Assembly (NCBI GenBank): GCA_013695115.1 | Contig: JACDBD010000211.1 | Span: 1 to 15,187 of the forward strand | Length of the DNA: 15,187 nucleotides | Source: Actinomycetota bacterium | Lineage (GTDB): Bacteria > Actinomycetota > Acidimicrobiia > IMCC26256 > JACDBD01 | Direction of reading: 5' to 3' | Position numbers and translations under genes: made by a program | Shown: in pieces, positions 6,112-8,327 of the stretch | Position numbering within the stretch: the first letter of the stretch is position 1 | Layout of the letters: each line of letters starts with the position of its first letter | The notes under the pieces: generated by a model | The model's input: only the letters and a program-made list of their open reading frames with translations | Told to the model about the DNA's origin: nothing | The model's database searches: none

Positions 6112-6156
6112 CCCGGGCGCGAGACCCCCCTCCTCTTCCTCTCGATCTGGAGCGTG

Positions 6157-7626
6157 ATGACCCGTCCCGGCACCCTCGGTGAGCTGCGAGCCGGCGGTTG
6201 GGTGTCGCGGCCGGTGAAGGAGGAGGTGCGGGCCAACGCGGTCACCCGTATCGCCGAGGGCAAGCCGCTGGTCGACGGGGTCATCGGCTTCGAGGACACG
6301 GTGCTGCCGCAGCTCGAGAACGCGCTCCTGGCCGGCCACGACGTGATGTTCCTGGGGGAGCGGGGCCAGGCCAAGACCCGCATCATCCGCTCGCTCACGA
6401 GCCTGCTCGACGAGTGGACGCCGACCATCGCCGGCAGCGAGATCAACGACGACCCCTACGAGCCCATCTCCCAGCACGCCCGCCTGCTCGTCGCCGAGCG
6501 GGGCGACGACACGCCGATCGAGTGGATCCACCGCGACCGGCGCTACGGCGAGAAGCTCGCGACGCCCGACACGTCGGTCGCCGACCTCATCGGCGAAGTC
6601 GACCCGATCAAGGTGGCGGAGGGCCGCTACCTCGCCGACGAGCTGACGATCCACTACGGGCTCGTCCCCCGCACCAACCGCGGCATCTTCTCGATCAACG
6701 AGCTGCCCGATCTCGCCGAGCGCATCCAGGTGGGTCTGCTGAACGTGCTCGAGGAGCGCGACGTGCAGATCCGGGGGTACAAGATCCGCCTACCTCTCGA
6801 CCTGATGCTGGTCGCGTCGGCCAATCCCGAGGACTACACGAACCGCGGCCGCATCATCACGCCGCTCAAGGACCGCTTCGGCGCCCAGATCCGCACGCAT
6901 TACCCGCTCGACGTCGCCGTCGAGATGGAGGTAGTGGAGCAGGAGGCCCGGCCGCTGGCGGCCGAGGAGCTGGCGGTGCAGGTGCCCGAGTTCATGTCCG
7001 AGATCGTGGCCGAGGTCAGCCAGCAGGCGCGGCGCTCACCCCACGTGAACCAGCGGTCGGGTGTTTCGGTGCGCCTGTCGATCGCGAACCACGAGACCCT
7101 GGTGGCCAACGCCGCCCGCCGGGCGCTGCGCAGCGGCGACCGCGAGGTCGTGCCCCGGGTGAGTGACCTCGATGCCCTGGTGGCGTCGACCGCGGGCAAG
7201 GTGGAGTTCGAGACGCTCGACGACGGGCGCGAGGAGCAGGTGCTCGACCGCATCGTGAAGGCGTCGGTGCTGGAGGTGTTCCGGGCGCGCTGCCGGCCGG
7301 AGAAGTTGGGCGAGCTGGTGGCGGCGTTCGACGAGGGGCTGGTGGTGCACACCGGCGACGACGTGCCCGCGTCCGACTACGCCGGGCTGCTGCCGAAGCT
7401 CAAGGGCCTGCGGGGCACGCTGGCGGACCTGGGCGTGGGGGAGACCCCGGCGGGTGTCGCCTCGGCGGTCGAGTTCGTGCTCGAAGGCCTGCACCTGTCG
7501 AAGCGGCTCAACAAGGACGCGGTGGGCGGCAAGGCCGCCTACCGCGGCCGCGGCGGCACCGCAGGTGGTGGCGGTTCGAGCGGTGGTGGCGGTTCGAGCG
7601 GCGGGGCCGGTCGGTCCGGCAGGTAA
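6157..7626 (+). CDS. MoxR/magnesium-chelatase-like AAA+ ATPase
   Basis: This 489-residue AAA+ ATPase has a Walker A motif GERGQAKT at 67-74. A Walker B-like segment reads GIFSINELPDL, with Asn181-Glu182 at the usual DE position. The sensor-1 region reads ASANPEDY, and DRFGAQI fits the arginine-finger region. It resembles the ChlI-like ATPases that pair with VWA proteins in actinobacteria and are thought to remodel or mature protein complexes; it is not evidence of chlorophyll synthesis. The ATG at 6157 is preferred because GGAG lies four bases upstream; a GTG one codon earlier leaves no spacer. The C-terminus is a Gly/Ser-rich disordered tail with a duplicated GGGGSS unit. The VWA partner is probably the gene at 9207, three genes away. 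Confidence 0.9.
   Translation: MTRPGTLGELRAGGWVSRPVKEEVRANAVTRIAEGKPLVDGVIGFEDTVLPQLENALLAGHDVMFLGERGQAKTRIIRSLTSLLDEWTPTIAGSEINDDPYEPISQHARLLVAERGDDTPIEWIHRDRRYGEKLATPDTSVADLIGEVDPIKVAEGRYLADELTIHYGLVPRTNRGIFSINELPDLAERIQVGLLNVLEERDVQIRGYKIRLPLDLMLVASANPEDYTNRGRIITPLKDRFGAQIRTHYPLDVAVEMEVVEQEARPLAAEELAVQVPEFMSEIVAEVSQQARRSPHVNQRSGVSVRLSIANHETLVANAARRALRSGDREVVPRVSDLDALVASTAGKVEFETLDDGREEQVLDRIVKASVLEVFRARCRPEKLGELVAAFDEGLVVHTGDDVPASDYAGLLPKLKGLRGTLADLGVGETPAGVASAVEFVLEGLHLSKRLNKDAVGGKAAYRGRGGTAGGGGSSGGGGSSGGAGRSGR
7564..7599 (+). repeat. Perfect 18-bp tandem duplication coding GGGGSS
   Basis: Two identical 18-base units beginning GGTGGTGG and ending TTCGAGC stand head to tail in the 3' end of the ATPase gene. 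They encode a flexible linker-like tail. Identity down to third positions points to recent duplication. Confidence 0.85.
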
Positions 7627-8327
7627 CGGACTACTACGACGTCCTCGGCGTCGAGCGCGACGCCACGCAGGAAGAGATCGCGTCCCGCTTCCGGGCGCTC
7701 GCCCGCACGCTCCATCCCGACAGCCGTCCGGTCGATCCGGCGGCAGCCGAGAGCTTCAAGCAGGTCACCGCGGCGTACCGGGTGCTCGGGAACGTCACCA
7801 GCCGGCGGAGCTACGACACCACCGGCTCTGCGCTCGCTCGACCTCCCGCCCCTCCACCGGCGGCCGCGTCCGCGTCCGTCCCGCCGCCGCGGCTGCCCCG
7901 TCTCACCCGCCGGGCCGCCCGGTGGGCCGTGATCGGTGGGATCGGCTGCTTCGTCTTCGGGATCGTCGCCTCCTTCTTGGTCGTCGTGCTCCAGCGCCAC
8001 GACACCGCCCTGCGCGAGGACGGCGTCGAGGTGACCGCGACCGTGGTGGAGGTGAGTGGCGAACGGCGCCTCCTCTTCACGACCGCGGCGGGTGACGAGA
8101 TCCGGGCCGAGGAGCCGCTCAAGAGTGGGACCGGCCGCCCGCCGGTCGGGACGCAGGTCGAGATCCTCTACGACCGCGACGACCCGACCACCGTCATCAA
8201 CGACGAAAGTCAGCTGGCCCGCGACATCACGTTGTGGATCGTCGCGATCAAGCTGGTCGTCGGCGGAGCGGTCTTCGTCGTCGTCGGCGCCCGTCGTCTC
8301 CGACGTACGGAGCCCGCAACCAGCTAG
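7623..8327 (+). CDS. J-domain plus DUF3592 membrane protein (non-canonical start)
   Basis: Counted from the GTA at 7623 the product has 234 residues. Residues 4-66 form a J domain (YYDVLGV, HPD at 31-33, SYD at the end), which stimulates Hsp70 ATPases. A Pro/Ala linker, a TM helix (about 101-123), a DUF3592-like extracytoplasmic domain (about 131-195, ending VEILYDRDDPTTVI) and a second TM helix (about 202-223) follow. No ATG, GTG, TTG or CTG occurs in frame from about 7440 to the J domain. The first canonical start is a GTG at 7782, inside the last J-domain helix, which would destroy the domain. The expected GTG is GTA, overlapping the ATPase stop (GTAA). Options are GTA or ACG initiation, frameshift from the ATPase, start-codon loss, or a base error. 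Domain calls are firm; the start is not. Confidence 0.75.
   Translation, partial: VTDYYDVLGVERDATQEEIASRFRALARTLHPDSRPVDPAAAESFKQVTAAYRVLGNVTSRRSYDTTGSALARPPAPPPAAASASVPPPRLPRLTRRAARWAVIGGIGCFVFGIVASFLVVVLQRHDTALREDGVEVTATVVEVSGERRLLFTTAAGDEIRAEEPLKSGTGRPPVGTQVEILYDRDDPTTVINDESQLARDITLWIVAIKLVVGGAVFVVVGARRLRRTEPATS

Follow-up and report, generated by a model that had tools for sequence, protein, structure and literature searches.

The only functional GUA start codon demonstrated so far, according to a 2018 paper (PMC6200909), is that of an E. coli recJ mutant. As described in PMC2268962 and PMC6200909, this start (Haggerty and Lovett 1997, as cited in both) has no SD sequence, is apparently coupled by re-initiation to an upstream ORF, works at low efficiency and is modulated by IF3 mutations. 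Natural non-AUG starts, according to PMC6200909, depart from AUG at a single base. ACG is one base away from AUG, and GUA is two. In Staphylococcus aureus, infC, ccpN, cvfC1 and citZ are described as having natural AUA or AUU starts, with an extended SD in infC, cvfC1 and ccpN, and near-cognate starts are reported to yield about 10% of the AUG level in poor medium (PMC13009471). Both PMC13009471 and PMC6200909 also mention AUA or AUU as start codons of IF3 genes. Termination-reinitiation at overlapping gene pairs is described in PMC6728339 for overlaps that use canonical starts, such as ATGA and TGATG.

The window, i.e. the whole stretch of 15,187 nucleotides that was analysed, belongs to a metagenome-assembled genome of 2.65 Mb in 454 contigs that is 87.9% complete. 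Its nearest named protein relatives are from Acidimicrobiia or Actinomycetota metagenome bins. The features discussed here are listed in Table 1. The upstream gene encodes a MoxR/ChlI-type ATPase with PF07728 and PF01078 above their Pfam cut-offs, and its relatives in the protein database reach 94% identity. The frame that follows is a real gene and forms a pair with the MoxR-type ATPase gene, in which it stands second; its product is a J-domain protein, hence a chaperone partner, anchored in the membrane. The gene is also slightly odd in that it is conserved and has no canonical start where it overlaps the ATPase.

Table 1. Positions of the ATPase gene, the J-protein frame, the possible start codons and neighbouring features in the window.
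Feature	Position	Strand	Remarks
MoxR/ChlI-type AAA+ ATPase gene	6154..7626	+	ORF of 490 aa, terminal AGG TAA, Gly/Ser-rich C-terminal tail
GTA in J frame	7623..7625	+	shares GTAA with the ATPase stop; candidate near-cognate start
ACG in J frame	7626..7628	+	one base in common with the ATPase stop (TAACG, TAATG phase); candidate near-cognate start
Startless J-protein frame	7626..8327	+	233 open codons, stop TAG 8325-8327
J domain, complete	7629..7817	+	PF00226, residues 2-64 of the translation from 7626; HPD at 7713-7721
First canonical in-frame start, GTG	7782..7784	+	use would drop most of the J domain including HPD
P0028, database form of the window protein, without J domain	7929..8327	+	132 aa from GTG 7929
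START-like protein, VWA-domain protein	farther downstream of J frame		

The J protein consists of the J domain, a Pro/Ala linker, a hydrophobic stretch, a small DUF3592-like part and a second hydrophobic stretch, with hydropathy peaks at residues 97-125 and 200-225. The match to PF00226 covered 63 of 63 profile positions with an E-value of 5.7e-21 (74.8 bits against a cut-off of 27.8), and the HPD motif falls at residues 30-32 numbered from the ACG. PF12158 (DUF3592) is annotated in the database for some relatives of the protein. No DUF3592 match above cut-off was found in the window protein itself, for which Pfam returned, at E-values up to 0.001, just DnaJ and a sub-threshold Sensor match. 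A literature search for DUF3592 together with DnaJ found no paper.

As shown by the sequence of the junction, the ATPase frame ends in AGG TAA (7621-7626), with its stop at 7624-7626. The J frame lies one base back from it and reads GTA (7623-7625), ACG (7626-7628) and then GAC TAC TAC GAC GTC. Upstream, this frame stays open as far as 7167, just after an in-frame TGA at 7164-7166. Between 7167 and 7622 it contains no ATG, GTG, TTG, ATT, ATC, ATA or GTA and a lone CTG at 7290, and between 7623 and 7781 no ATG, GTG, TTG or CTG; an ATC that had not been listed earlier is present at 7677, inside the J domain. The original prediction, made from the letters of the window, had named a complete J domain with HPD, the lack of any ATG, GTG, TTG or CTG in frame from about 7440 to 7781, and a GTA at the natural start that overlaps the upstream stop as GTAA. 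All three are borne out, and the coordinates hold. The bases that the ATPase stop shares with the presumed start (GTAA or TAACG) include no ATG, GTG or TTG.

The coding signal was used to place the 5' end of the gene. From 7626 to 7928 only the J frame had a positive mean codon score (+0.16 per codon). The five remaining frames scored below zero, one of the reverse frames at just -0.02, and the J frame upstream of the junction (7167-7622) scored -0.37. The coding-score boundary of the gene was placed at 7575, 16 codons above the GTA and within the Gly/Ser-rich ATPase tail. The absence of canonical starts, together with a coding signal that is positive only below the ATPase stop, puts the beginning of the gene at the ATPase stop, with a start that is not canonical. 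Among the 434 5'-closed predicted genes of an 81-contig sample of the genome, the J gene ranked fourth for coding signal above any canonical start.

To measure constraint, we counted private changes in those columns where the four nearest full-length relatives (P0001, P0002, P0003 and P0005) agree. Of these columns, 45 are in the J domain, where the window had 3 private changes, and 89 in the C-terminal part, where it had 5; the J domain has changed at roughly the pace of the remaining protein. When each of the four relatives was treated as the odd one, the counts were 0/42, 1/43, 5/47 and 2/44 in the J part and 4/88, 2/86, 8/92 and 5/89 in the C-terminal part. The window counts thus fall within the range of the four relatives, and the J part bears no mark of loosened constraint. 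These small numbers suggest that the J domain is, or until recently was, translated. The coding frame is conserved up to a point at which no canonical start is found.

Several ATPase and J-protein entries in the database come from contigs of equal size: P0124/P0001 (3448 bp), P0127/P0020 (9949 bp), P0134/P0011 (14210 bp), P0136/P0008 (6228 bp), P0139/P0025 (4016 bp), P0141/P0018 (6403 bp) and P0122/P0029 (32697 bp). The matching contig sizes suggest that the ATPase-J neighbourhood is conserved. An arrangement that the original prediction had named as speaking against it, a single fused ATPase-J frame in relatives, was not seen among the best 120 of 8000 scored ATPase relatives. The 692-aa ATPase relative P0121 was considered as a fusion and rejected, as it has an internal repeat in its sequence and no DnaJ in a Pfam scan. 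A block of about 200 residues is repeated in tandem in P0121, perhaps by an assembly duplication.

Database relatives of the J protein fall into two kinds. Among the 12 entries listed at 74% identity or more, four (the P0001, P0002, P0003 and P0005 used above) are full length with an ordinary start and eight (P0004, P0006, P0007, P0028, P0029, P0043, P0046 and P0051) are called from an internal start. No full-length entry among those listed exceeds 84% identity to the J protein. The cluster of P0028 has five members on four contigs, the longest of 7351 bp and hence other than the 15187-bp contig of the window. P0029 is a species-level relative with 12% amino-acid divergence. Its contig (32,697 bp) agrees in size and organism label with the one that carries the complete ATPase P0122, so the ATPase-J junction is probably present there. 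P0004, P0043, P0046 and P0051 are on contigs of less than 2 kb, P0007 on one of 2.7 kb and P0006 on one of 3.1 kb. The first residue was M, V or L in 262 of 263 database proteins, and 5'-partial genes are mostly excluded from the database, so on short contigs an internal call may merely reflect a gene cut by the contig edge. P0028 and P0029 are the strong cases among the internally called entries. Four more distant entries of the J family, P0241 (45 kb), P0242, P0250 and P0254 (624 kb), likewise have their first residue within the J domain or beyond it, some of them on long contigs. Internal calls are thus not confined to the clade of the window.

Where relatives are full length, the protein begins MKT-DYY, or with V/MTTRE....VDYY about 9 codons above DYY. 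All 16 of the more distant orthologues fetched from the order had an ordinary start at most 12 codons above the J domain. This ATPase was found beside none of the distant orthologues in the 34 non-window loci compared (L003-L036, flanks up to 1.5 kb), and the ancestral junction is therefore not revealed by them. A close relative's junction was found neither in the order (58 genomes) or the family (2 genomes) nor in a class sample of 395 genomes drawn from a larger group. Species-representative contigs gave 58 loci, the best with 50% identity over most of the protein and the others mainly J domains alone, and viral contigs gave one distant locus and no close relative's junction. The family has one other genome, in which the match to the ATPase (G001 contig 235, L096) stops some 180 bases short of the end of the contig, and no J gene was seen in these bases after the ATPase stop. 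They form a G-rich low-complexity run that is probably poor sequence.

Other genes of the same genome also appear to have no canonical start. In the infC gene (TIGR00168; L128:4495-5104, minus strand, G000 contig 31) the conserved part is preceded by an ATA and by no canonical start, with an anti-SD pairing of -6.8 kcal/mol. A glyoxylate-reductase-like 2-hydroxyacid dehydrogenase (L154:154-1110, G000 contig 57) has ATT at the start position. In 9 of 11 fetched relatives this codon is ATG (4) or GTG (5), and in the other two there is no start at that codon; three more matching genomes were left out of the comparison. The ATT may be a real start or a second one-base error.

A scan for such genes over 81 contigs of the genome gave 18 of 434 5'-closed predictions above the cut (delta over 8), compared with 1 of 337 in the control genome G016. 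In G008 the count was 137 of 310, with translations resembling the wrong strand, which makes that genome unusable either way. Many of the 18 cases look spurious, and Pfam matched nothing in three of those submitted to it. Three candidates (L225, L109:7390-9138 and L154:2554-3192) were dropped, as their Pfam matches leave a startless reading unsupported. Since spurious predictions confound the scan, its statistic alone is no evidence, and only the homology-backed infC and dehydrogenase genes count. An acyl-CoA dehydrogenase gene (L113:9533-10684, minus strand, G000 contig 16) was also observed in which a CTG forms part of a CTGA overlap and canonical starts are absent nearby. In two of 15 related loci, the nearest two, the stretch from -12 to +13 codons likewise contains no canonical start, and the position of the start differs among the loci. 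This gene may be damaged, as the matches of its relatives stop near residue 340 of 384, and we treat it as a lead only.

The most likely reading, to which we give a probability of about one half, is that the J gene starts by termination-reinitiation on a near-cognate codon, GTA at 7623 or ACG at 7626. A ribosome finishing the ATPase would terminate at the TAA and would restart at once, with fMet-tRNA, on the GTA or the ACG beneath the stop. The product would be an M-(T)-DYYDVLGV protein, made at a low level that is tied to translation of the ATPase. We infer the start at the junction, the codon used and the low coupled output alike. Both codons are sited so that a ribosome could resume on them directly after termination, and we make no choice between them. 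This reading is favoured by a J domain that is complete and under unloosened constraint, by the internally called relatives, by the other startless genes and by the precedent of recJ. Counting against it are the ordinary starts of 4 of the 12 near entries and of all 16 distant orthologues, and, for the GTA, its distance of two bases from AUG.

The original prediction had offered two origins for the junction, a real near-cognate start or a single G-to-A change that had turned a GTG start into GTA. Conservation of the J domain, the internally called relatives and the other startless genes give better support to the near-cognate start. To compare the junction with the habits of the genome, overlaps were counted in 147 tandem pairs from a 61-contig sample. 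Four-base overlaps were 27 GTGA, 22 ATGA and 3 TTGA, so that GTGA, presumed at the outset to be the usual stop/start overlap, is indeed the commonest. One-base overlaps occurred in 6 of the 147 pairs. The GTA at 7623 is in the phase of the four-base overlap and the ACG at 7626 in the one-base phase (TAACG as against TAATG). The TAATG overlap occurred twice in the sample, once within GTAATG at L147. Anti-SD pairing above the GTA was -5.2 kcal/mol, which is average when compared with the median of -5.3 for 52 canonical overlap starts. The window junction is outside the distance filter of that set of 52 starts (-52), and the GTAA entry in the set is L147, with its start in TAATG.

It is possible that the GTA arose by a single G-to-A change. 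However, any TAA that follows a codon ending in G puts a GTA in the J frame, and G directly precedes the stop in 80 of 168 predicted genes ending in TAA or TAG in the 61-contig sample; the GTA is therefore weak evidence for a lost GTG. Judged from the sequence, a T-to-C change in a TAATG overlap would fit the junction equally well. The junction may also have been rebuilt instead of being hit by one change, as the full-length relatives start at other offsets, and these varied offsets point to a junction that changes often. The frequent G before stops, the equal fit of a TAATG origin and the varied offsets together weaken the case for G-to-A as the favoured origin.

A doubtful alternative, the better placed of the remaining ones, is that the start was lost recently in the species or a small clade. 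The full-length protein would then be gone, leaving a membrane protein without the J domain made from GTG 7782 or 7929, and the J domain would still be intact since little time has elapsed. The absence of a canonical start agrees with such a loss, as do the conservation of the remainder of the protein and the call of gene callers at 7929 (P0028). Against it, the J part carries no excess of changes. If the loss were common to the internally called relatives, it would also be at least as old as the 12% amino-acid divergence of P0029, a time over which decay of a J domain that is not translated would be expected.

We consider it unlikely, and place it below recent loss, that the junction TAACGGAC contains a sequence or assembly error, e.g. 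one wrong base, and that the real gene has an ordinary start. A single base would suffice, and the genome is fragmented and incomplete, as the contig number and completeness given above indicate. Same-frame continuations across a stop, of which there were 35 in 118,342 codons, allow error rates of about 3e-4 to 4e-3 per base, a range too wide to bound the error. Three of the 35 lacked an ordinary start in the 60 bases that follow the stop, among them L136, with a start only before the stop. Evidence against an error comes from the relatives. The P0028 cluster spans several contigs with the short form as its representative, the species-level relative P0029 is short too, and full-length entries above 84% identity are absent from those listed. 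The fact that 8 of the 12 closest entries, including the window's own cluster, are also internally called makes an error confined to the window unlikely.

Production of the J domain as an ATPase fusion by a -1 frameshift near the ATPase end was rejected as very improbable: the J frame is in the -1 register relative to the ATPase, with 153 open codons upstream, but no X XXY YYZ slippery heptamer was seen by eye in the last ATPase codons, the upstream coding signal of the J frame is negative, and the 120 best of the 8000 scored ATPase relatives list no fused protein.

If the J gene does start by near-cognate restart, the junction would represent in nature what the recJ GUA mutant is in the laboratory, and start-codon choice would be looser for a ribosome that is already on the message. 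In a less probable extension of this reading, the same laxity would account for the other genes of this genome without canonical starts. Gene callers would then miss the N-terminal domains of such genes, as the database protein here is without its J domain. Either way, the short annotated forms of this J-protein family need their start calls checked.

When compared with known systems, the locus shares with the recJ mutant a GUA (GTA) in the start position and an upstream ORF. The recJ codon is a laboratory mutation in a known gene, whereas the GTA of the window would be a natural start, overlaps the stop itself and is a candidate only. With the near-cognate genes of S. aureus the locus has in common that conserved genes have no ATG, GTG or TTG. 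The starts there are AUA or AUU, three of them with an extended SD, whereas the window offers GTA or ACG with anti-SD pairing that is just average. In the termination-reinitiation pairs described in PMC6728339, as in the window, the stop and the presumed start share bases, but the window has no canonical start among them. Acidimicrobiia membrane proteins with a J domain and a DUF3592-like part resemble the window protein in combining the J domain with hydrophobic segments, at up to 84% identity to the full-length entries. Those full-length entries begin with M, V or L, whereas the J frame of the window has no such codon at which to begin.
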